NCBI GenBank assembly: GCA_026392275.1
Contig: JAPLCM010000054.1
Location: 1 to 32,528 of the forward strand
DNA length: 32,528 bases
Origin: Actinomycetota bacterium
GTDB taxonomy: Bacteria; Actinomycetota; Thermoleophilia; UBA2241
Direction: 5' to 3'
Shown: positions 7,724 to 24,765 of the stretch, piece by piece
Layout: every line of letters starts with the position of its first letter
Position numbering within the stretch: position 1 is the stretch's first letter
Program-made: the position numbers and the translations under genes
Notes under the pieces: model-generated
What the model saw: only the letters and a program-made list of their open reading frames with translations
Databases searched by the model: none
What the model was told of the DNA's origin: nothing

Positions 7724-9382
7724 CTACTTCACCCAGACGTCCCACATGTCGACGAAGCCCATGGGGTCGCGCGCAAAGCCGCCGATGCGGTTGTTCGTCA
7801 CGAGAAAGTCGCGGTAGTAGTACAGCGGGATGGCGGGCATGTCGGAGAGGATGAGCTTCTCGGCCTGGGCGTAGAGGTTGTACCGCTGCTGGGCGTCCTG
7901 CGTGCCGCGCGCCTGCAGGAGCAACTCGTCGACCGCTGCGTTCGAGTACCCGGTGAAACTGCCGCTGCGCGACTGCTCCGAGTAGAACAGCGGGTACAGA
8001 AAGTCGCCCATCGACGGATAGTCCGCGATGTAGCCCATGGCGAACAGCTGCGCCCCGCTCCCCGAGTCGCCTCTCGACAGTCCGTCGATCAGAACCGGGC
8101 CATCGAAGTCGCTGGGCTCGACGGCGATGCCGGCGGACGCCCAGCCAGTCTGCAGGATCTCGGCGATCTCCGTGGCGGGCGCGCTCGTCGTGTACCAGTA
8201 GGCGAGTCTCGGAGCTCCGCCGAGGCCCATTACGATGGCCGTCGCCTGCTCCAGATCATAGGGATAGGGATTCTGGGCGTCGCGATGGCCGGCGATCCCC
8301 ACCGGCACGTAGCCCGACGCCTGCAGCGGCACGCCCTCGCCGGCCGCGTTGCACACGGCCTCGGCGTCGGCCGACTGGCTCAGCGCCCGGCGAAGCTGGA
8401 GGTCGTCGCCAAGCGCCGCGTCACCCATGTTGATGCCGATGAAACCAACGGCCGGGTCGGGCCACGCTGCGGCGGTCCACTCACCAGCCGTCACTTGCGG
8501 GAGGGTCGCGGCGGCCTCCACCTGGCCGGGCGGCACCCGCGAGCAATCGAGGTCGCCCGCCTGGAACTCGAGCCACATGGCGTCGGTCTCGGCGATGATG
8601 GGCATGCTGATCGCGGCCACCCAGCCCGCGTTGTCGGCATCCCAGTAGGCGGGGTTCCTGGCGAGCTGGATGGAGCGCCGCTTGCGCCACGATTCGACCA
8701 CGTAAGGGCCGGTGCCCACGGGCCTCTGGCCATACTTCTTCTCGCCGACCTTCTCGATGTAGTCGACCGGGGTCACGGCCGCGACGGTGTGGCCGAGGAT
8801 CATCGGCAGGTCGGCGAACGGATACCGAAGCTTGACCTCGAGCGTGGAGGCGTCGAGCGCCCTCACGCCGGTGAGGCCCACCCTGGGATCGACCTGGTAC
8901 CCGTCGTCGTCGCAGCCCTCAAGGGGAGCCAGGATGTACGAGACGTAGGAGTGGTTCCTCGGGTCGGTGACGCGGTTCCACGAGTCGACGAAGTCCTGCG
9001 CTGTGACCTCCCGGCCCACTGGCGGCTGGAAGGTCACGCCCTTCTTGAGCGTGAAGGTCCACGTCTGCGCGTCGGTGGTCTGCCAGCTCTCGGCGATCCC
9101 GGGTGCGGCGACCATGACGCCGGCGTCGTTCATCCGCCACTTCACCAGGCCCTCGAAGACCTGGTGCGCGACCTGCATGCCCTCCGGCTCCTGGGCGTTG
9201 AGCGGCTCGATGGAGACCGGGTCGGCGCGAAGCGGGAAGTCGTACGTGCCGCCGGTCTTGGGGGCGTCGACCGCAGCGGCGCCGGGGCCGGCGGTGCCGG
9301 CGCTGCCGCAGCCGGGCAGGATGAGAAGGGCAGCGAGGAGCACAGCAGACACCGCGACTGCGGCGCGGTCGAGCGAGTGCAT
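7724..9382 (-). CDS. Second peptide ABC transporter substrate-binding protein (SBP family 5), lipoprotein
   Basis: Start MHSLDRAAVAVSAVLLAALLILPGCGSAG at 9382; the longer 811-aa ORF is an upstream extension in an out-of-frame region. Clear paralog of 5593..7266 (GMQVAHQVFEGLV, WTFTLKKGVTF, PVGTGPYVVESW). ATGA overlap with gpmI. Confidence 0.9.
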   Translation of the reverse strand: MHSLDRAAVAVSAVLLAALLILPGCGSAGTAGPGAAAVDAPKTGGTYDFPLRADPVSIEPLNAQEPEGMQVAHQVFEGLVKWRMNDAGVMVAAPGIAESWQTTDAQTWTFTLKKGVTFQPPVGREVTAQDFVDSWNRVTDPRNHSYVSYILAPLEGCDDDGYQVDPRVGLTGVRALDASTLEVKLRYPFADLPMILGHTVAAVTPVDYIEKVGEKKYGQRPVGTGPYVVESWRKRRSIQLARNPAYWDADNAGWVAAISMPIIAETDAMWLEFQAGDLDCSRVPPGQVEAAATLPQVTAGEWTAAAWPDPAVGFIGINMGDAALGDDLQLRRALSQSADAEAVCNAAGEGVPLQASGYVPVGIAGHRDAQNPYPYDLEQATAIVMGLGGAPRLAYWYTTSAPATEIAEILQTGWASAGIAVEPSDFDGPVLIDGLSRGDSGSGAQLFAMGYIADYPSMGDFLYPLFYSEQSRSGSFTGYSNAAVDELLLQARGTQDAQQRYNLYAQAEKLILSDMPAIPLYYYRDFLVTNNRIGGFARDPMGFVDMWDVWVK

Positions 9383-11010
9383 CAGGCCGGCTCCAGAAGG
9401 CCGGTGCCGGTCATCTCGGCGGGCTGGGCAAGGCCCAGCAAGCCGAGCGCCGTCGGCGCGAGGTCGCACAGCCGGCCCCCTTCGCGCACGCGCACTCCGG
9501 CCGCCGTGGCGATGAACGGCACCAGGTTGGTGCTGTGCGCGGTGTTGACGCTGCCGTCGGGCTCGAGCATGTGGTCGGCGTTGCCGTGGTCGGCGGTCAC
9601 GAGGCAGACGCCGCCGAGGCGGGTCACCAGTTTCACGACCCGCCCCAGACACTCGTCGACGGCCTCGAGCGCCGCGACCGCGGCGGAGATCACGCCGGTA
9701 TGCCCCACCATGTCGGCGTTGGCGTAGTTCACGACTGCGAAGGCGAAGCCACCGCCGACCAGAGCCGCGACCAGCTCGTCGGTGACTGCGTAGGCGCTCA
9801 TCGCCGGCTTGTGGTCGTACGTGGGCACGTCGCGGGGGCTCGGCACGAGGATGCGCTGCTCGCCCTCGACCGGCTTCTCGACGCCGCCGTTGAAGAAGAA
9901 GGTCACGTGCGCGTACTTCTCGGTCTCGGCGATGTGCAACTGGCGCAGCCCGTGCGCGGCAAGCACGTCGGCGAGCACGTTCTCGGGGTGTTCGGGCGCG
10001 AAGGCGACGGGCAGCCCGAACTCCTTTTTGTACTCGGTCATCGTCACGAAGTCGACGGCCGGCGGGTGTGGGCCACGCTCGAAGGCGGTGAAGCCCGGCT
10101 CCGCGAAGGCGCGCGTGAGCTCGCGGGCGCGGTCCGGGCGGAAGTTGAAGAAGAGGCACACGTCGCCGTCGGCGACGCGCGCGTCGCGCTCCGGCGCTAC
10201 GATGGTCGGGCGCACGAACTCGTCGTTCTCGCCGCGCTTGTAGGCGGCGTCCACCGCGGCCTGCGCGTCGGTGGCGAAGAACCCCTGGCCGTAGACCAGG
10301 GCGTCGTAGGCGAGCCTGACGCGTTCCCAGCGCGTGTCGCGGTCCATGGCGTAGTAGCGGCCGCTGACCACGCCGAAGCGGCCCACGCCGAGATCGTCCA
10401 TCTTCTGCTGGATCTCGGCCAGATAGCCCTTGGCGCTTCGCGGCAGGGTGTCGCGGCCGTCGAGAAAGGCGTGCACGACCACGCTACCCACCCTCTCGCG
10501 GGCGGCCAGCTCGAGGCAGGCCTTGAGATGCCCCATATCGCTGTGCACGCCGCCGCCCGACACCAGGCCCATGAGGTGCAGCGTGCTGCCGCGGCCCACG
10601 ACCTTGGCGCACGCCTGCTTGAGCACGCGGTTGGCGAAGAAGTCGCCGTCGGCGATCGCCTTGCTGATGCGCGTGAGGTCCTGGTACACGACGCGCCCGG
10701 CGCCGATGTTGAGATGCCCCACCTCGGAGTTGCCCATCTGGCCCGGCGGCAGCCCCACGGCCGGGCCGGATGCTTCGAGGGTGCCGTGCGGGCAGGCGGC
10801 CAGCAGCCCGTCGAAGACGGGAGTGGCCGCGAGGCTCACGGCATTGCCCGGTCCGGCAGGCGCGCAGCCCCAGCCATCCAGGACCATGAGCACGACGGGC
10901 CGTTGCACGCGGCCCGTCGGCGAGAGGGCCGCGTCGCCGGGGTCCGGGGTCGGCGACCGACCACCCGGAGGCGCACCCGGCCCTGCGCCGACGTTGTCGT
11001 CAGCGCTCAA
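9382..11010 (-). CDS. gpmI: 2,3-bisphosphoglycerate-independent phosphoglycerate mutase
   Basis: VLMVLDGWGCAPAGPGNAVSLAATPVFDGLL, PPGQMGNSEVGHLNIGAGRVVYQDL, VHAFLDGRDTLPRSAKGYL, TADHGNADHML. Start uncertain: TTG 11010 (overlaps the tpi stop, GGAG upstream) or in-frame GTG 10908 (508-aa protein). Confidence 0.93.
   Translation of the reverse strand: MSADDNVGAGPGAPPGGRSPTPDPGDAALSPTGRVQRPVVLMVLDGWGCAPAGPGNAVSLAATPVFDGLLAACPHGTLEASGPAVGLPPGQMGNSEVGHLNIGAGRVVYQDLTRISKAIADGDFFANRVLKQACAKVVGRGSTLHLMGLVSGGGVHSDMGHLKACLELAARERVGSVVVHAFLDGRDTLPRSAKGYLAEIQQKMDDLGVGRFGVVSGRYYAMDRDTRWERVRLAYDALVYGQGFFATDAQAAVDAAYKRGENDEFVRPTIVAPERDARVADGDVCLFFNFRPDRARELTRAFAEPGFTAFERGPHPPAVDFVTMTEYKKEFGLPVAFAPEHPENVLADVLAAHGLRQLHIAETEKYAHVTFFFNGGVEKPVEGEQRILVPSPRDVPTYDHKPAMSAYAVTDELVAALVGGGFAFAVVNYANADMVGHTGVISAAVAALEAVDECLGRVVKLVTRLGGVCLVTADHGNADHMLEPDGSVNTAHSTNLVPFIATAAGVRVREGGRLCDLAPTALGLLGLAQPAEMTGTGLLEPA
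10893..10919. other. Hairpin spanning the alternative gpmI GTG start
   Basis: CGACGGGCCG-TTGCACG-CGGCCCGTCG: perfect 10-bp arms, 7-nt loop containing the GTG (minus strand) at 10908-10906. Confidence 0.5.
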
Positions 11011-12962
11011 GCAGGCGGCTCCACGAAGCGCACGATACGCGCGAACTCCTGGGGGTCGAGGCTCGCCCCGCCGACGAGCACCCCGTCGATGTCGGGCTGC
11101 GCCATGAGCACGTCGATGTTGCCTGCCTTGACGCTGCCGCCGTAGAGGACACGGACCCCGTCGGCGGCGTCGCCGAAGCGCTCGCGCACGCGCCGCCGCA
11201 CGAAGGCCACCGTCTCCTGGGCCTGGTCCGGGGTCGCCGTGACACCGGTGCCGATCGCCCAGATGGGCTCGTAGGCGATGGCCACGAGGGCCAGCTCGGC
11301 CACGCCGACCTCGGCAAGGCCGCCGTCGAGCTGGCCGCCGACCTTGGACTCTGTGGCACCGGCCTCGCGCTCGTCGAGGGTCTCGCCGCAGCAGAGCACC
11401 GGGCGCAGACCGGCGTCGAGGGCGGCGCGCACCTTGCGCGCCAGGTCGGAATCGTTCTCGGCGTAGTACTGACGGCGCTCGGAATGCCCGAGGATGACGT
11501 AGGGCACGCCCAGCTCGAGCAGCATCTGCGCGGCGATCTCCCCGGTATAGGCACCCTCGGCGGCGAAGTGCATGGTCTGGGCGCCGATCGCGACCTCCGT
11601 CCCGGCGGTCGCGGCCAGCGCCGTCTCGAGATCGATGGCCGGCGGACAAAGGAGGATGTCGCGGTCGTCCACCCCGGCGACCCGGGGGACAAAGGCCGCG
11701 AAGAACTCCTTCGTCTGCGGCCGCGTCTTGTACATCTTCCAGTTGCCGGCCATGAGCGGCCTGCGGCCTGCGGCCACGGTACTACCACGATCCATGAGCG
11801 CCTCCACGCCGGGCAGCGCCCGGCCCTCCAGGAATTCCATTGACGCGCCGCCCCCCGTGGAGACGTGCGTCATGCGCGTCTCCAGACCGAAGCGGCGTGC
11901 CGCCGCCACGGTGTCGCCGCCGCCGGCCACGGTGACCGCGGCGCTCGCCGCGATGGCCTCGCCGACGGCCTTGGTCCCGGCGCTGAAATCGTCGATCTCG
12001 AACAGGCCCATGGGCCCGTTCCAGTAGATGGTCCCCGCGCCGCGCAGGTGCCGCACGAACTCGGCGACGGTCTCGGGGCCGACGTCGAGCGCCATCTGGT
12101 CGGCGGCGATGCCGCCGACGCCCACGACCCCGGAAGGCGCCCCCGCGAGCGCGTCGCGCGCCACCACTAGGTCGCGCGGGAGGACCAGCTCGCAACGCGA
12201 GGTGGCGGCGGCGGTCAGCACCCGGACGGCGACGGCGACCTGGTCGCCGTCGCCCTTGGACAGGCCGATGCCGTGGCCCTTGGCTGCGAGGAAGGCGTTG
12301 GCCATGGCGCCACCGATGAGGATCGCGTCGGCGGTGCCCAGCATCTTTTCGATGACGCCGATCTTGTCGGAGACCTTGAGGCCGCCGAGGACGACCACGA
12401 AGGGCCGCGCCGGATCGCGAAGCAGGCGCCCGAGGATCTCGAGCTCGCGGATCATGAGGAGGCCCGCCACCGAGGGCAGGTAGTGCGTGACGCCCTCGGT
12501 GGAGGCATGGGCGCGGTGAGCGCTGCCGAAGGCGTCGTTGACGTAGACCTCGGCGAGCCCCGCCAGGCGCTCGGCAAAGACGCCGTCGTCGTCGGTCTCC
12601 TCGGCGTGGAAGCGCAGGTTCTCGAGCAGCAGCACGTCGCCGGGGCGCAGAGCCCCGGCGGCCGCCTCCGCGGCCGGCCCGACGCAGTCGGCGACGGTCT
12701 GCACGGGGCGGCCGAGCAGCTCGGCGAGGCGCACGGCCACCGGAGCCATGCTCAGAACGTCGACGACCTGCCCCTTGGGCCTGCCGAGGTGTGACGCGAG
12801 CACCACGGCGCAGCCCTGGTCGAGCAGGTACGTGATAGTGGGCAGCGCGGCGCGGATGCGCGTGTCGTCGGCCACGCGGCCACCCTCGAGCGGCACGTTG
12901 AAGTCGACCCTCACGAGGACGCGCTTGCCGGCGAGCGGGTAGTCGGTGAGCGAACGCTTCAT
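11007..12962 (-). CDS. Bifunctional phosphoglycerate kinase / triosephosphate isomerase fusion
   Basis: Single uninterrupted frame. [72 protein letters not shown]; linker [83 protein letters not shown]. Start ATG 12962 with GGGAGG upstream. Confidence 0.92.
11756..11776. repeat. 7-bp tandem repeat at the PGK-TIM junction
   Basis: + strand GCGGCCT GCGGCCT GCGGCCA, about 2.9 copies of a 7-bp unit (not a multiple of 3). Confidence 0.85.
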
Positions 12963-12990
12963 GATGACTGCAGCCTCCCTGGCTCCGCGG

Positions 12991-14019
<1,029 letters not shown>

Positions 14020-14051: not shown

Positions 14052-17000
14052 TCACGGCGGCCGGGGCGGCGTCGGGCGCGCCAGGGTCGGGATACGACCC
14101 AGGAAGATATTGCCCGTGCGCCCGTCGATGGACAACCACTCGCCGGCACGCAGCTCGCCGCCGGCCAGGCGCGCCGTTCCCTCACGCTCGATCACCTCCA
14201 GGTCCCTGCAGTCGACCACGGCGGTCTTGCCCAGGCGCTTGGCCGTCACGGCGGCGTGCGACGTGGCGCCGCCGCGAGCCGTCAGGATGGCGCTGACCCG
14301 GGCGATCATGGCGATGTCTTCGGGTACCGTGTCCGGGCGCAGCAACACGATGTGCTCGGCGGGAGCCTCGGCCAGCAGCTGATCGATCTGCGCCTCGTTC
14401 ACGGCGATCCGCCCCGAGTAGGCGCCCCCGGCCACTCCCATGCCGACCGCCGCGGGGGGTCCGTAGTTGGGCGAGGACGTATCGAAGTAGGCCGCATCCT
14501 TGGCCTGCTCCTGCACCCCGCCGCGCTTCTGCAGCACGTAGACATCGTCCGCAGCCGGCGACTCGAAGGTGAACTCGATCTCCTGGGGGTCGAACTCACG
14601 CTCGACGACGAGCTCGCACGCCACCGACAGCAGTTCCTCGTAGACCTCCGGGTAGTCCCGCTCCAGAGAGCGCTCCGTACCCCGGTACGTGGAGCTGCCC
14701 AGACGCTGGGCTTCGGAGATGGGCAACGGGAAGACCAGCCCGCCGACCAGATCCTCGCCCTGGCTGCGTACGGCGAAGTCGCCGAACAGGCGCACGCGAC
14801 GGCTGTACGGCTCGAACGGGTTGTGGGTGAAGGTCACTCCGGAGCCCGACTCGCGGCTCAGGTTGCCGAAGACCATGCGCTGCACCACGACGGCCGTACC
14901 CCATTCCTCGGCGACGCCCGTATACTGGCGGTAGATGCGGGCCGGCGCCGAGTCCCACGATTCGAGCACCTTGAAGATGCAGGCGACCACCTGGTCGAAG
15001 GGCTCGTCGATGAAGACGACGCCCTCCGCCTGCGCCCGCAGTTTGTACGCGAGGGCGATCTCGCGCATCTGCGCGACCGTGAAATCGCGTTTCTGCCCGA
15101 CTCCGTGGCGGCTCTTGAACTCGGCGATGATGGCGTCGAAGAAATCCCGGTCGATGCCGTCGGACATGGCCCACGTCTGCAAAAAGCGACGATAGGAGTC
15201 CCAGGCCGCCCACCCGAGGCCGGGTTCCGCCGCCAGCGACTCCGTCAGCGCGTCGTTGAGGCCCACATTGACGAAGGTGGTCATGAGACCGGGCATGGAC
15301 ATGGCCGCGCCCGAACGGATGGACAGGAGCAGGGGCCGCGCGTGGTCGCCGAGGCGCAGGCCGGTCTGCCTCTCCGTCTGGCTCAACGCCTGCCGGACGC
15401 GCTGCACGGTGTCGGCGTACAAGGGCCGGTACGACATCGCCGGCATGGCGCCGAAGAGCTCGGTGGTGAGGATGAAGCCCTCGGGCACACGAAGCCCGTA
15501 CGACGCCATCTCCTTGAGCCCCTGGCCCTTGTAGCCAAGGCTCAGGCGATCGTCGGTGGCGGCCTTGGGCTTGTGGATCGGCGACACCAGCCGCTCGGGA
15601 TCGTAGTTCATCAGGCGCGTGAGCGCCTGCACGCTGAGGCGCCCGTTGAGCAGCGCGATCTGGCGCAGAGCGGCCGCCGCGTAGCGGTCGAGAGCCTGCA
15701 TCCCGAGGGCCGACACGAGCACGTCGCGGAGGACCATCTCGGCGACCGCTTCCATGGACATGCCGCGCGCCGCGCATTGGCGGGGGTCGTTGGTGAGCAC
15801 GGCATGCAGCACCTGGTCGTGGCTGAGGATCGACGTCGCGGAGAGCTCAGTCACGCTGCTCACCAGGAACTGGAACACGTTCTGATACTGGCCGAAGGTG
15901 AAGTTGCGGCTGTTGAAGCTGGCGCCCAGCAGGGCCAGGTTGGCACCCAGGGCGCGCGAATCGACGCCGTCGATGGACAGCGCCCGTTCGAAGCGCGACA
16001 TGGCCGTACTCATGCGGCGCAGCGAGGCCCGGGTCACGTAAGGCTCCGGGCCTTCCTCGACGAGATCCTCGAGAAGCCTGTCGACCAGCTTCTCCACGCG
16101 GAACGATAGGCCCAGCGCGTCGAATTTGGGCTCGCCGTAATTTCCGTAGATCGACGGGATGCCGGCGGCGATGTGGCGTTTCTGGTAGATGTTCTCGGTG
16201 GCCGCTGAGGGCGCCGGGCCGAGAATGATGGCCTTGAGGTCGCGCAGCACGTCGAGAGCCGCGTCCAGCAGGCGATCCAGGGTCGCAGGCTGCGGGTGCG
16301 CCTGCCACGCGGCCAGGTCGCGCGCGAACCTGCGCCTTACCTTCGCCTCGAGCTGCCGGTGCCGGGCGACCGCCGCATCCACGTCGTCGGCTGACAAGGA
16401 GTACTTGTTGGAGACCAGCTGATAGGTGCGCACGAGGAGGGCGACCCGGCGACGATCGCTTTCGGTGCCCGCCTCGTCGCCGCTCGCGGCGCCCGCGCCC
16501 AGCCTGTCCAGATGAGCCTCGAGTGCGGCCGGGGTCAGCGCCAGGAGCCGGCCCGGCAGATCCTCGAGCAGCGGCGCGGCGAACTGCGTCTGCAAGGCCA
16601 GGAGCGTCGCGTGGGGGCCTCTGGCCCACTGCGGCTCGCTGCGCACCATCTCCATCGTGTTGGCAGAGAGGAAAGGTCGGAGGCCGGAAAGCTCGAGGGT
16701 CATCCAGTAATCGAGCACGGCGCGGCAGAACGGCACCATGCGGTTGGATGACTCCGCGTGCAGCTGCTTGCGCAGGAAGTGCGTAAGCGTGTCGCGGCGC
16801 CCGCAGATCTCGTCGATCTGCGTGGAGACGGCGCGCAGCTCACCCTCCGCGCCGATCTCGTTGAAGTACACAGGCAAGGTGCGTAGCAGCTGCTTGGCGA
16901 CGAAGAAGATGGGGCGGATGTCGGCGTCCAGGAACCTCGTGACATCGCGCTGGAAGAGGTCGGTGTCGGCGATGTAGACGCCGCCCAGCCGTAGCTGCAC

Positions 17001-18230
17001 GTTGAGCGCGGCGGCAAGGCGCTCATAGAGCGCGGGGTTCGACTCGATGATGTGCATCCAGCAACGGATCTTCGGCAGATGGAAGGGATTGACCACCGTC
17101 TCCCACTCGTCGGTCGCTCCGCTGATGTCCGGGTACTGAAATCTCCAGTAGAGGATATCGGCGACGAGATGGTCGGCCGCCTTGACGTTGCCGGCCTCGC
17201 CGATGGCCACACCGATGGCCTCGAAGCACTGGAAGCGCATCAGCAGGAACTCGTTGTCACGGTCGCGGAAGAAGGCAGTCAGCCGGCTCAGGATACGATC
17301 GGCGTCCATGTGGCGATCGGGATGGAGCATCTGCCTGACGACTCCCAGAAGGTCGGCCATGACTTCGTTCTGGCGGTGGCCCAGGGTGTCGTCCTTGAGG
17401 AAGTAGAGACACACGGCGAAACGGTCCTCGAGGTTCTCGACGTGAAACAGGTGGCCGATGGCGCGCCCGAGGATGTCGGAGAGCGCGGGGTACTGCTCCG
17501 CCAGAAGGAGCTCCTCGTCGGCCGCCTTTCGGGCGCCGCGGATCAGCGCCGACAGGCGCTTGCCCGAAAGGAGGGCAAAGCGCGCGGCGACGGCCACGGG
17601 ATCGGTGAGGCCGGCCCTCTGCGACGTCGCCCAGCCGGGTACATCCAGACGCTCCTCCAAGCGGCGGTAGCCGAGCAGGAGCACGCGCCGATAGAGATCG
17701 AAGAAGACCGGCGCCGGCCGCCGACCCGCCCGAGCGACGAGGTCGCGCAGCAGCGCGTCGCGCTCGAGAAAGGCCACGGGCTGCAGGGGCAGCAGGCGGG
17801 CCAGCGACGCGCCGATCATCTCGAGACCGTCGTCGTAGGCGGAGCCGTGCCGACCGCTGAGGGCGTCTGTGCACCACTGGAGGAGCGCGCGAAGCAGGAG
17901 CGAGGCCTGCTCGGCGGTGAGAGCGCTCTCGAGCAGGCCGAGCACCAGTTCTGCGAAGAGGCCGAAGAGGCGGGAGCGGTCGTCGGAACGCTCGAAGTAG
18001 GGCCAGTTGCGAAGGAGCGTAGTCTGGAAGCCCTCGACGAGCATGTCGGCGTTGCGGAAGGTGTGGAAGTACTCGCCGATGGTCTCGGTGAGCGAGGCGC
18101 GTACGCCTTGGAGCCCCTCGACCGCGTCCACCAGGGGCAGGTAGCGATCGGGGATGACGACCTTCTGCGCGGTCCTGTCGATGTTGGCGCGCAGGGCGTC
18201 TGAATCGAAGGGTACTGGCGTCGTTCTCAC
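14052..18230 (-). CDS. PPDK-like protein: about 885-aa unassigned N-terminal region + PPDK-type ATP-grasp domain + phosphohistidine swivelling domain; lacks the C-terminal PEP/pyruvate TIM barrel
   Basis: 1392 aa, GTG start 18230. C-terminal about 507 aa: GYKGQGLKEMASYGLRVPEGFILTTE, LLLSIRSGAAMSMPGLMTTFVNVGLND, GTAVVVQRMVFGNLSRESGSGVTFTHNPFE, SQGEDLVGGLVFPLPI, DPQEIEFTFE...VYVLQKRGG, ILTARGGATSHAAVTAKRLGKTAVV, GEWLSIDGRTGNIFLGRIP, then ends. Confidence 0.85.
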   Translation of the reverse strand: MRTTPVPFDSDALRANIDRTAQKVVIPDRYLPLVDAVEGLQGVRASLTETIGEYFHTFRNADMLVEGFQTTLLRNWPYFERSDDRSRLFGLFAELVLGLLESALTAEQASLLLRALLQWCTDALSGRHGSAYDDGLEMIGASLARLLPLQPVAFLERDALLRDLVARAGRRPAPVFFDLYRRVLLLGYRRLEERLDVPGWATSQRAGLTDPVAVAARFALLSGKRLSALIRGARKAADEELLLAEQYPALSDILGRAIGHLFHVENLEDRFAVCLYFLKDDTLGHRQNEVMADLLGVVRQMLHPDRHMDADRILSRLTAFFRDRDNEFLLMRFQCFEAIGVAIGEAGNVKAADHLVADILYWRFQYPDISGATDEWETVVNPFHLPKIRCWMHIIESNPALYERLAAALNVQLRLGGVYIADTDLFQRDVTRFLDADIRPIFFVAKQLLRTLPVYFNEIGAEGELRAVSTQIDEICGRRDTLTHFLRKQLHAESSNRMVPFCRAVLDYWMTLELSGLRPFLSANTMEMVRSEPQWARGPHATLLALQTQFAAPLLEDLPGRLLALTPAALEAHLDRLGAGAASGDEAGTESDRRRVALLVRTYQLVSNKYSLSADDVDAAVARHRQLEAKVRRRFARDLAAWQAHPQPATLDRLLDAALDVLRDLKAIILGPAPSAATENIYQKRHIAAGIPSIYGNYGEPKFDALGLSFRVEKLVDRLLEDLVEEGPEPYVTRASLRRMSTAMSRFERALSIDGVDSRALGANLALLGASFNSRNFTFGQYQNVFQFLVSSVTELSATSILSHDQVLHAVLTNDPRQCAARGMSMEAVAEMVLRDVLVSALGMQALDRYAAAALRQIALLNGRLSVQALTRLMNYDPERLVSPIHKPKAATDDRLSLGYKGQGLKEMASYGLRVPEGFILTTELFGAMPAMSYRPLYADTVQRVRQALSQTERQTGLRLGDHARPLLLSIRSGAAMSMPGLMTTFVNVGLNDALTESLAAEPGLGWAAWDSYRRFLQTWAMSDGIDRDFFDAIIAEFKSRHGVGQKRDFTVAQMREIALAYKLRAQAEGVVFIDEPFDQVVACIFKVLESWDSAPARIYRQYTGVAEEWGTAVVVQRMVFGNLSRESGSGVTFTHNPFEPYSRRVRLFGDFAVRSQGEDLVGGLVFPLPISEAQRLGSSTYRGTERSLERDYPEVYEELLSVACELVVEREFDPQEIEFTFESPAADDVYVLQKRGGVQEQAKDAAYFDTSSPNYGPPAAVGMGVAGGAYSGRIAVNEAQIDQLLAEAPAEHIVLLRPDTVPEDIAMIARVSAILTARGGATSHAAVTAKRLGKTAVVDCRDLEVIEREGTARLAGGELRAGEWLSIDGRTGNIFLGRIPTLARPTPPRPP

Positions 18231-18337: not shown

Positions 18338-19060
18338 ATGGGTATCCAACGAACGCTCGGCGTCAACAAGTGGGTCGCATCGGCAAGCTCGTGCCCTGGT
18401 AACACCTGGGGCGCGACGATGTCGACCGCCTCGTGGTCAACGTCGGCCGCCCGGTGGACACGTCGCTTCAGGCGGTGGTGCAGTACGTCGCCAAAGACAG
18501 CCCCTGCGGCCCGCTGCACCGCTATCTCCTTGGGCAGGCGGGCGTGCGCGACGTCCTCGTGGTCGACGAGAAGCGCGGCCTGATCCGCGCCCACGGCAAG
18601 GAGGTCGTCGTGCTCCGCGAGGCCCGCGACCGCAGAGGCATCCCCTGGCGCGACCACGGCGCTGGCCCACAGGATCCGCCCGCTGCTCGAGCGCGACCTC
18701 ACGCGCAACACGATCACCGCGGGCACGAGCACAGTGCCTGCGGTCACCAACACGCAGCCGGTGCTCGACGCCGTGCCGCAGGTCGGCGCCACCGACCTGC
18801 GCAAGAGCCGCGGCGCCTTAGGCAACGTCGTGCGCACGTCGACGAACGCCGCGGCGCTGGAACAGGTCATGCCCGAGATCGGGCGCATCGGCTTCATGGA
18901 CCTGCGTGTACCCTCAGGGGCGCCGGGCGCGGGCGCGGAGTGCGAGACGGTGAGACGGCCGCTCACCCACGTCAAGATCTTCGGCTGGTACGACAACGAG
19001 ATGGGCAGCCACACCCACCGCCTGGGCCAGCTCACCATGCGCATCGCCAAGAGCCTGTAG
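18338..19060 (+). pseudogene. Degenerate glyceraldehyde-3-phosphate dehydrogenase paralog
   Basis: Fragments in more than one frame: MGIQRTLGVNK (18338), then after a frame change GRIGKLVPW*HLGRDDVDRLVVNVGRPVDTSLQAVVQYVAKDSPCGPLHRYLLG (TAA at 18400-18402), then after another frame change DLRKSRGALGNVVRTSTNAAALEQVMPEIGRIGFMDLRVPSG...HVKIFGWYDNEMGSHTHRLGQLTMRIAKSL*. No catalytic SCTTNC region found; length 723 bp versus about 1 kb expected. Confidence 0.85.
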
Positions 19061-22388: not shown

Positions 22389-22925
22389 TCATGCGAGTCT
22401 CCCGTTCGCGACGGGCACGCCTTCGAGCCTCAGGAGGCGCTCCTTCCAGGCAGGGTCGTCGCCGTACTGCCCCAGCCGGCCGTCGTTTCTGACGACGCGG
22501 TGGCACGGCAGGATGACCGGCAGCAGATTACGGGCCATGACCGATCCGGCGGCGCGGTAAGCGTTGGGGCGCCCCGCCGCCGCGGCCAGCTCCCGGTAGC
22601 TGACGGCGGTGCCGTACGGTACGTGCGCGAGCGCCCGGAAGACGTCGCGCTCGAAGTCGGTGAGACCATGGGCGCCGGCGTAGGCGTCGACGTCCAGATC
22701 GAAGACGACGCGCTCGCCGGCGAAGTACCGCTCGAGCGACAGCGCCCAGCGGCCCGACGGGCCGGCCCCGGAAGGGGCCGCGGCGTCGGGGTCAGGCAGT
22801 TCCGCCTCGAGCGGCAGGTCGCCGGCCACCAGAAGGCGGCCCACACCGAGGCCGCAGACGTAGACCTCTTCGGCCAGCGGGCCCAGGCCCGCGTAGCGTT
22901 CAGCCCGTCTTGTGAAGCTGCGCAT
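22389..22925 (-). CDS. Methylated-DNA--protein-cysteine S-methyltransferase (Ogt-like)
   Basis: FERDVFRALAHVPYGTAVSYRELAAAAGRPNAYRAAGSVMARNLLPVILPCHRVVRNDGRLGQYG with active-site PCHRVV. Start trimmed to ATG 22925 (MRSFTRRAERY); overlaps the uvrC end. Confidence 0.9.
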   Translation of the reverse strand: MRSFTRRAERYAGLGPLAEEVYVCGLGVGRLLVAGDLPLEAELPDPDAAAPSGAGPSGRWALSLERYFAGERVVFDLDVDAYAGAHGLTDFERDVFRALAHVPYGTAVSYRELAAAAGRPNAYRAAGSVMARNLLPVILPCHRVVRNDGRLGQYGDDPAWKERLLRLEGVPVANGRLA

Positions 22926-24765
22926 AGATCTCCCTCGCCACTTTGCCCGGCAGCCCCGGCACGCGCTCCAGTTCCTCGCGAGAGGCGGCGATGAAGCGCT
23001 CGGGGCTGCCGAAGTGCTGCAGGATACGCCGCCGGCGTACGGGGCCGACCTGCGACAGCCCATCGAACACGGAGGCCTTGTGCAGATCGGCGTCGCGCCG
23101 CTGCCTATGGTACGTCACGGCGAAGCGGTGCGCTTCGTCTCGGACGCGCTGCAGCAGGAGCGAGCCGGGATCGTCGGCGGGCAGCGGCAGCGGCTCGCGG
23201 CGCCCGGGTACGAAGACCTCTTCGCGCTGCTTGGCCAGGCTCACGAGGTCGACGGCGGCGTTCGCCGCTTTCAGCGCCGCCTGCGCCGCCGAAAGCTGCC
23301 CCTTGCCGCCATCGACCACCACCAGATCGGGCAGCGTGGCGAAGCTCTCGTCGTAGTCGCCGCCGGCGGCGGCCACATTGCGCTCGAAGCGCCGCCGCAG
23401 CACCTGGTTCATCATCGCGAAGTCGTCCTGCCCCTGCACGTCACGGAGCGCGAACTTGCGGTAGTGCGCCTTCTTGGCCACCCCGCCCTCGAAGACCACC
23501 ATGGAGCCCACGACGTGCTGCTCGCCGAGGTTGGAGATGTCGTAACACTCGATGCGCAGCGGCAGGCCCTCGAGGCCGAGGCCGTCGCGCAGGCTCTCGA
23601 GCGCCTCGATGCGCGCCGTGCTGCGGCGCGCCAGACGCTCGGCTTCGGCCTGCGCGGCCAGCTCGGCATTGCGTCGCGCCAGCTCCAGAAGGCGACGCTT
23701 GGGGCCGCGCTTCGCGGCACGCACCGTGAGCTTGGCGCCGCGGCGCGCGGCCAGGAGCGCCACCACCCCGACGCTGTCCTCGAGCGGAGCGACGATCTGC
23801 GGCGGGATCGACGCGCCGTCCCAGTAGAACTCGAGGAGGAACTCCTCCACGACCTCCGCCGCGTCGCGACCGCCGGCGTTGTCGACGTAATACGCCTGAC
23901 GATCGACGACGGCGCCGTCGCGTACGCGGAACACCTGCACGTTGGCGCCCGGCTCGCCCTGGTGCAGGCCGATCACGTCGAAGGCCTCGCCGCCCTCGAT
24001 GCGCGCCGCCTGCCGTTCGTGCACGTGCCGGACCGCGTCGAGCCGATCGCGCAGCAGCGCCGCGCGCTCGAACTCCTGTGCCACGGCCGCGGCCGCCATC
24101 TCGCCGGCGATGCCCCGCTCAACGGCGCCGAGACGGCCGCGCAGGAAGTCGATGGCCTGCTGCACGACCGCCATGTACTCCCCGTGCGTGACGCGCGCGT
24201 CGCACGGGGCCAGCGAACGCTTGATGAAATACTGGAGGCAGGGTGATCCGCTGGGGCGGCCCGGCTTGACGCCACGGCACTTGCGATACGGGAAGATGCG
24301 CCCGATCACGTCGAGCGTATCGCGGACCTTGCGCGCGCTGGAATACGGCCCGAAGTAGAGGTTCCCAGGCACGTGCCGACCGCGGAAGAAGCGCACCCGC
24401 GGCCACTCGTCGCGCAGCGTGATCTCGATGAACGGGTAGCTCTTGTCGTCGCGCAGGCGAAGGTTGAACGGCGGCCGCGACTCTTTGATGAAGTTGTCCT
24501 CGAGAAGGAGCGCCTCGACCTCGGAAGCGGTGACCACCCACTCGATGTCCCGCGCCAGAAGAAGCATCTCGGGGGTGCGCCCGTGCGGCGTACCGCTGCG
24601 GCGAAAGTACGACGAGACGCGCTTGCGCAGCTCCTTGGCCTTGCCCACGTACAGGACCTCCCCGGCGGCGCCCATGAAGCGGTACACGCCGGGCTGATTG
24701 GGGATGCGCGGCAGGATGGCGCGAAGAAGCGACGTGTCGTCGGGGGGTTGCGAGGAATCTTTCAT
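22900..24765 (-). CDS. uvrC: Excinuclease ABC subunit C
   Basis: GIY-YIG-like PNQPGVYRFMGAAGEVLYVGKAKELRKRVSSYF, ECYDISNLGEQHVVGSMVVFEGGVAKKAHYRKF, VVDGGKGQLSAA. Confidence 0.97.
   Translation of the reverse strand: MKDSSQPPDDTSLLRAILPRIPNQPGVYRFMGAAGEVLYVGKAKELRKRVSSYFRRSGTPHGRTPEMLLLARDIEWVVTASEVEALLLEDNFIKESRPPFNLRLRDDKSYPFIEITLRDEWPRVRFFRGRHVPGNLYFGPYSSARKVRDTLDVIGRIFPYRKCRGVKPGRPSGSPCLQYFIKRSLAPCDARVTHGEYMAVVQQAIDFLRGRLGAVERGIAGEMAAAAVAQEFERAALLRDRLDAVRHVHERQAARIEGGEAFDVIGLHQGEPGANVQVFRVRDGAVVDRQAYYVDNAGGRDAAEVVEEFLLEFYWDGASIPPQIVAPLEDSVGVVALLAARRGAKLTVRAAKRGPKRRLLELARRNAELAAQAEAERLARRSTARIEALESLRDGLGLEGLPLRIECYDISNLGEQHVVGSMVVFEGGVAKKAHYRKFALRDVQGQDDFAMMNQVLRRRFERNVAAAGGDYDESFATLPDLVVVDGGKGQLSAAQAALKAANAAVDLVSLAKQREEVFVPGRREPLPLPADDPGSLLLQRVRDEAHRFAVTYHRQRRDADLHKASVFDGLSQVGPVRRRRILQHFGSPERFIAASREELERVPGLPGKVAREIYAQLHKTG

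Follow-up and report, generated by a model that had tools for sequence, protein, structure and literature searches.

Actinomycetota bacterium (GTDB lineage Thermoleophilia; UBA2241; assembly GCA_026392275.1) carries, directly upstream of gap, pgk/tpi and gpmI, a gene for a PPDK-like phosphotransfer protein that ends where PPDK would continue into its PEP/pyruvate-binding barrel. To what, then, does such a protein pass its phosphate, and why does it lie beside glycolytic genes? The original prediction, made from the sequence alone, was that the acceptor is something other than pyruvate, possibly bound by the N-terminal region or by a separate partner, and that the position suggests a glycolytic or sugar-phosphate link. 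We analyzed the window, i.e., the whole 32,528-nucleotide stretch (contig JAPLCM010000054.1, positions 1 to 32,528), together with relatives of the protein, which we call PPDKL.

We first asked whether the observation is real, and found that it is. The ORF starts with GTG and has exactly the predicted boundaries, and the catalytic His codon lies where it had been placed. Pfam detected PF01326 (residues 943-1242; 82 bits, cut-off 27) and PF00391 with its TSHA motif (residues 1292-1373; 63.6 bits), whereas PF02896, whose absence had been put forward as a test, was not found even at E<=10. Residues 895-1382 align with Clostridium symbiosum PPDK (1kbl, E 1.3e-71) and stop where PPDK enters the barrel. 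The features of the locus are listed in the table.

Table. Features of the PPDKL locus (positions in the window)
Feature	Position	Strand	Size or residues	Observations
PPDKL, PPDK-like barrel-less phosphohistidine protein	14052..18230	-	1392 aa
N-terminal region, predicted alpha-solenoid of unknown family, proposed acceptor- or partner-binding region	15576..18230	-	885 aa	invariant clusters at residues 376-517 and 609-713
ATP-grasp (PPDK_N) domain	14505..15548	-	residues 895-1242
Phosphohistidine swivelling domain	14085..14459	-	residues 1258-1382
Codon of the predicted phospho-accepting His1325 (GGATSHAA)	14256..14258	-		invariant in 61 of 61 sequences
Canonical type I GAPDH (gap)	12991..13989	-	332 aa	start codon 62 bp downstream of the PPDKL stop codon; TIGR01534 437 bits, over the cut-off of 367
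Pseudogene of the divergent GAPDH (dGAPDH)	18338..19060	+		intact next to PPDKL in relatives
Fused phosphoglycerate kinase-triosephosphate isomerase ORF	11007..13043	-		PF00162 residues 33-408, PF00121 residues 429-673; real start probably ATG at about 12965
2,3-BPG-independent phosphoglycerate mutase (gpmI)	9382..10902	-		PF06415, PF01676; approximate 5' end

A barrel in the N-terminal region, in an adjacent gene or in a frameshifted continuation had been named as what would overturn the reading, and we therefore looked for each. None was found in the N-terminus, as a frameshifted continuation or in the adjacent genes identified, which are gap, PGK-TPI, iPGM, whiA and yvcK/CofD, and the two PF02896 matches of the genome are on other contigs. 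The lack of a barrel is not due to an assembly break, truncation or frameshift, because complete homologues of about 1360-1430 aa with this architecture occur in over ten phyla and end in the same place. Two features had escaped the original prediction: the broken second GAPDH gene on the + strand, and the fusion of PGK and TPI in one ORF.

We next examined the two halves of the protein. Residues aligned with PPDK K22, R92, R134/R135, Q335, R337, S454 and H455, and the acidic pair, which are catalytic in PPDK, are invariant in 61 sequences, and the predicted fold of the C-terminal half superposes on 1kbl with 3.3 A over 541 columns. The N-terminus was modeled by AlphaFold, a check proposed in advance, as a confident alpha-solenoid (pLDDT 88.3, pTM 0.82). 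It has no Pfam or PDB relative: no PDB structure matched with a TM above 0.2, the weak resemblance being to protein-binding HEAT-type karyopherins, profile searches against the PDB and Pfam returned only designed helical repeats and noise, and Foldseek against viral proteins returned nothing. Phage and defence libraries gave only a PPDK-like phage kinase family matching the C-terminus, and no defence family. The N-terminus is nevertheless conserved, with invariant charged clusters (KRHxAxxIPSxYGxYxE, DTDLF, GAEG, RKQxHxE), and its invariant residues are enriched in charged and His residues (39% against 26%), consistent with an acceptor-binding role. They include R466, R478, R487, K488, H491, K684, R685 and H686.

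The survey of homologue neighbourhoods that had been suggested as a test gave a very strong, repeated link to GAPDH across phyla. Of 57 relatives with enough flanking DNA, 54 have a GAPDH gene within 1.3 kb and 56 within 3 kb. Usually this is a previously unremarked deep GAPDH clade (dGAPDH, about 410 aa), often with ordinary gap on the other side, so that PPDKL sits between two GAPDH isozymes in many loci; linked GAPDHs also come from several canonical clades. The link is specifically to GAPDH and not to the whole glycolytic operon: gap-pgk-tpi-gpmI as a whole follows only in this Thermoleophilia family, with pgk or tpi near it in a few others, and in Thermosulfurimonas dismutans gap, PPDKL, dGAPDH and pgk lie in that order on one strand. 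GAPDH is the only broadly conserved neighbour. We considered that the link might merely reflect the old Actinobacterial uvr-rapZ-yvcK-whiA-gap-pgk cluster, but rejected this as the whole explanation, because GAPDH linkage recurs in other phyla and no uvr/rapZ/yvcK/whiA cluster recurred there beside it.

In the samples searched, dGAPDH occurred only in genomes that carry PPDKL: in the same 18 of 60 class relatives, in the same 4 of the phylum sample, and in 6 of 9 PPDKL-bearing genomes against 0 of 110 others in a Bacteroidales-centred sample. An alignment of 49 dGAPDHs showed that the catalytic Cys149 and His176 are kept. dGAPDH belongs to the type I GAPDH fold family but forms a single deep clade, is about 75 aa longer, has SCTTT instead of SCTTN, and has the region around the NAD-binding Asp32 remodelled to N-x-GR; all four sequences tested scored below the TIGR01534 cut-off (269-343 of 367 bits). 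A preference for NADP is predicted from the loss of Asp32. Compared with the Thermoleophilia pair L028, the dGAPDH of the window has a 1-bp deletion plus 251- and 258-bp deletions, whereas PPDKL is under purifying selection (dN/dS about 0.16 between the window and L028).

We then compared PPDKL with the known enzymes of this type. PPDK has the ATP-grasp and swivelling phosphohistidine domains in the same order, but PPDKL reaches only 339.9 bits against the TIGR01828 cut-off of 843, lacks the barrel, has the solenoid in front and is linked to GAPDH; conversion of pyruvate, ATP and Pi to PEP, AMP and PPi was not assayed. Phosphoenolpyruvate synthase has the same two domain types, but the match is much weaker (TIGR01418, 61 bits, cut-off 739.75) and PPDKL has no barrel. 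The closest mechanistic analogue is rifampin phosphotransferase (PMC4844700), in which another acceptor domain replaces the barrel, although PPDKL scores 30.9 bits against the NF041857 cut-off of 999 and has no rifampin-binding domain, its proposed acceptor module being the N-terminal solenoid. Glucan, water dikinase and phosphoglucan, water dikinase combine an N-terminal acceptor module with phosphohistidine and ATP-grasp domains, but have the opposite domain order and carbohydrate-binding modules, of which Pfam showed no trace in PPDKL or in ten N-termini of relatives. PPDK-annotated proteins in which no barrel is reported include SSO2820 of Sulfolobus solfataricus (PMC6474364), which lacks the His domain and is inactive as PEPS or PPDK, and Desulfovibrio Dde_0604/DVU0246 (PMC4001038); we found no report of a GAPDH link for them, and their relation to PPDKL was not examined. 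Earlier biochemical work on the PPDKL architecture would also have counted against the original prediction, but none was found in a literature search that left out most subscription papers. Together these results support the original interpretation, although they do not prove what the acceptor is.

We propose that PPDKL is an ATP-dependent phosphohistidine transferase built on the nucleotide half of PPDK, which probably works at the GAPDH step. In this view, the ATP-grasp domain would phosphorylate His1325 (ATP to AMP, probably with Pi to PPi as in PPDK), and the swivelling domain would carry the phosphate to an acceptor site on the conserved face of the solenoid, which takes the place of the barrel. 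The most likely acceptor is 3-phosphoglycerate, giving 1,3-bisphosphoglycerate for the neighbouring GAPDH (dGAPDH, or canonical gap where dGAPDH is lost), or the reverse reaction would make ATP from AMP and PPi. An acid-activating partner would fit a GAPDH-type acyl-phosphate reductase, and phosphohistidine-to-acyl-phosphate transfer occurs in succinyl-CoA synthetase. Our data establish the domain make-up, the conserved catalytic residues, the novel N-terminal domain, the GAPDH linkage and the one-way dependence of dGAPDH on PPDKL, while catalysis, the PPi/AMP chemistry, the solenoid as the acceptor site and the identity of the acceptor are inferences. Several findings speak against this reading, to which we give a probability of about 0.35. 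PGK is present in 46 of 50 genomes carrying PPDKL (the four without it are MAGs of unstated completeness), so that replacement of PGK is not supported and activation of 3-phosphoglycerate would be redundant with a reversible enzyme. The solenoid resembles no known phosphoglycerate-binding fold, and its conserved face was not shown to be a pocket facing His1325. The broken dGAPDH in the window indicates that dGAPDH is not strictly needed.

The main rival, which we consider doubtful but which genomic data do not separate from acceptor catalysis, is that PPDKL is a regulator. The solenoid would be a protein-docking scaffold, and the phosphohistidine domain would phosphorylate or allosterically control GAPDH, or switch between the two GAPDH isozymes, in response to the ATP/AMP/PPi balance. 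The weak resemblance to karyopherins, the position between two isozymes and the fact that any GAPDH clade seems to do are in favour of this, and SSO2820, a truncated PPDK_N protein, was suggested to be regulatory (PMC6474364). However, all catalytic residues checked are retained, the invariant N-terminal charged clusters look more like an active site than a repeat scaffold, and an 885-aa domain is large for a regulator.

About equally doubtful is the possibility that PPDKL phosphorylates or repairs another small molecule of triose metabolism (glycerate, glyceraldehyde, dihydroxyacetone, or a damaged by-product of GAPDH), whose product enters or leaves at GAPDH. The superfamily has several acceptors, namely pyruvate, water, glucans and rifampin (PMC4844700), and the invariant polar N-terminal residues fit a small-molecule site, but no catabolic gene, transporter or other sugar enzyme recurs in the neighbourhood, which makes an outside substrate less likely. 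A degenerate PPDK that lost its barrel and has no enzymatic role is contradicted by the fixed architecture across more than ten phyla, the invariant catalytic residues, the dN/dS and the conserved partner.

Lower glycolysis is regarded as fully mapped. PPDKL adds a new candidate acceptor-domain fold to the PPDK superfamily. If it were a phosphoglycerate dikinase with a previously unknown acceptor fold, paired with its own GAPDH clade, a doubtful reading but one that our data do not rule out, it would provide a second, AMP/PPi-linked way between 3-phosphoglycerate and glyceraldehyde-3-phosphate, standing beside PGK as PPDK and PEP synthase stand beside pyruvate kinase. A large phosphohistidine enzyme tied to GAPDH in bacteria of more than ten phyla, many of them probably anaerobes, and accompanied by a GAPDH clade seen only with it, points to an unknown reaction or control at the GAPDH/PGK step.

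We first examined the ORF encoding the PPDK-like, barrel-less phosphohistidine protein, hereafter PPDKL, which starts from a GTG codon. A Pfam search, put forward in the original prediction as a check of the domain make-up, gave PPDK_N (PF01326) at residues 943-1242 and PEP-utilizers (PF00391) at residues 1292-1373 and nothing else even at E<=10. PPDK of C. symbiosum aligns from residue 895 to 1382 (E 1.3e-71) and would continue into its barrel where PPDKL ends. A comparison with NCBIfam confirmed that the nearest family is PPDK (340 bits, far under the cut-off of 843) rather than PEP synthase (61 bits) or rifampin phosphotransferase (31 bits). Two PF02896 barrels were found elsewhere in this Thermoleophilia (Actinomycetota) draft genome but none on this contig, so ordinary PEP enzymes are present as well. 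The coordinates of the features are collected in the table.

Coordinates and strands of the genes and gene remnants considered in the window
Feature	Coordinates	Strand	Size
PPDKL	14052-18230	-	1392 aa
Pseudogene of the divergent GAPDH (dGAPDH)	18338-19060	+	
Phosphoglycerate kinase-triosephosphate isomerase (PGK-TPI) fused in one ORF	11007-13043	-	678 aa
6-O-methylguanine DNA methyltransferase-type protein, in the uvrC-rapZ interval	22389-23063	-	

PPDKL is not a fragment. A related protein is encoded by class relatives and by 563 confirmed loci in the bacterial genome collection, of which the best 80 were kept. The kept loci come from Thermoleophilia, Bacteroidota, Ignavibacteriota, Thermodesulfobacteriota, Myxococcota, Magnetococcales, Nitrospirota, Cloacimonadota, Planctomycetota, Chloroflexota, Sumerlaeota and others, and the only named pure-culture strain that we recognised among them is Thermosulfurimonas dismutans S95. 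Complete copies are about 1360-1430 aa long and end after the His domain. Between the window and its close relative, locus L028, dN is 0.07 and dS 0.42. In 61 sequences the residues aligned with the functional PPDK residues K22, R92, R134, R135, Q335, R337, S454, and H455 and the acidic pair before them never vary, whereas T453 is Ala in three.

The N-terminal 885 residues have no Pfam family, either in the window protein or in ten diverse relatives, and no sequence relative in the PDB beyond designed helical bundles and noise. AlphaFold modeling, which had also been suggested beforehand, was based on a 61-sequence alignment and gave a confident model (pLDDT 88.3, pTM 0.82) that is nearly all helix with one beta hairpin at residues 678-699. 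Foldseek found only a weak, global-solenoid resemblance to karyopherins with TM below 0.2, and nothing in viral models. Invariant residues concentrate at 376-517 and 609-713 and are richer in charged and His residues than the domain as a whole (39% against 26%), with the motifs DTDLF, GAEG, RKQxHxE, and KRHxAxxIPSxYGxYxE. This looks like a catalytic or ligand-binding face; we infer that it receives the phosphate, although this could not be shown. A second model, of residues 330-1383, matches the PPDK entries 1kbl and 1dik at 3.2-3.3 A over about 540 columns, much better than the alternative swivel state 2r82. In 1dik the His faces away from the ATP site.

We next surveyed the neighborhoods of the homologues, the test named in the original prediction for a repeated linkage to gap/pgk. 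Clustering of all ORFs around the homologues left one broadly recurrent true neighbor, a GAPDH, in 74 of the 80 loci in the clustering; we read the other large clusters as reading-frame shadows. Of 57 loci with at least 1.5 kb on both sides, 54 have a GAPDH gene within 1.3 kb and 56 within 3 kb. The arrangements differ, with PPDKL then dGAPDH in 33 loci, canonical gap, PPDKL, dGAPDH in 14, divergent canonical gap in 12, canonical gap then PPDKL in 4, and others; T. dismutans has gap-PPDKL-dGAPDH-pgk. The dGAPDHs form one deep clade (100/100 support), while the linked canonical GAPDHs belong to several clades. The link has therefore either been made repeatedly or been kept through much divergence. 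In two records assigned to different phyla, L108 (named Alphaproteobacteria INTA.CYC.164) and L094 (Bacteroidales STF2_223), the GAPDH genes and the locus layout are near-identical, pointing to mis-binning, mislabeling or very recent transfer.

In the samples searched, the dependence between both genes is one-way. Among 60 class relatives, the 18 with PPDKL are exactly the 18 with intact or contig-split dGAPDH, and in 297 genomes of the phylum the 4 others with PPDKL are the 4 with dGAPDH. In a 119-genome Bacteroidales-centred sample, 6 of 9 PPDKL genomes have dGAPDH and none of the 110 others do. These genomes are related, and the counts are hence not independent trials, but no exception to the rule that dGAPDH occurs only with PPDKL was seen. 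A group of Bacteroidales-type genomes has PPDKL beside canonical gap with no dGAPDH found, while several others keep dGAPDH at a distance. The Bacteroidales-type genomes of loci L076, L082, L083, L091, L092, L095, L099, L111, L116, L119, and L123 lack dGAPDH, but most of them carry a third GAPDH in an open frame of about 490-550 aa.

In the window itself, the dGAPDH gene lies divergently from PPDKL and carries a 1-bp deletion and two clean internal deletions of 251 and 258 bp against L028, the first large one removing the catalytic-Cys region. The gene is intact in sister genomes, although a draft-assembly error in the window cannot be fully excluded. PPDKL is followed at 62 bp by canonical gap, then by the PGK-TPI fusion and gpmI. 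In L028 PGK and TPI appear as separate, adjacent matches; a PGK-TPI fusion also occurs in Thermotoga. On the other side of PPDKL lie whiA, yvcK/CofD, rapZ, and uvr genes. Inferring from gene order, PPDKL and dGAPDH look inserted between whiA and gap in this family.

We then considered how PPDKL probably works. That ATP phosphorylates His1325, leaving AMP, is supported by the conserved residues but was not assayed, whereas the subsequent steps are inferred: the conversion of Pi to PPi from the kinship to PPDK, and the transport of the phosphate to the N-terminal domain by the swivelling domain. Also inferred, with a probability of about 0.3, is that the acceptor is 3-phosphoglycerate, giving 1,3-bisphosphoglycerate for GAPDH, or the reverse. 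This reading fits a partner that acts on an acyl phosphate and the dependence of dGAPDH on PPDKL. The main objections are that PGK is nearly always present (46 of 50 genomes) and that a solenoid could as well dock GAPDH itself, and both rivals are kept with similar weight. In some PPDKL-bearing genomes (our genomes G066, G069, G071, G095, and G109) the only PGK found is of a divergent type, with open frames of about 433-453 aa and E about 1e-73 to 1e-83 against PF00162; its linkage to the module was not examined.

Searches of open-access full text found no characterized protein of this architecture. The superfamily principle of changing the acceptor domain is already known from rifampin phosphotransferase (PMC4844700), and PPDKL varies on this principle with an N-terminal fold and a GAPDH partnership that appear undescribed.
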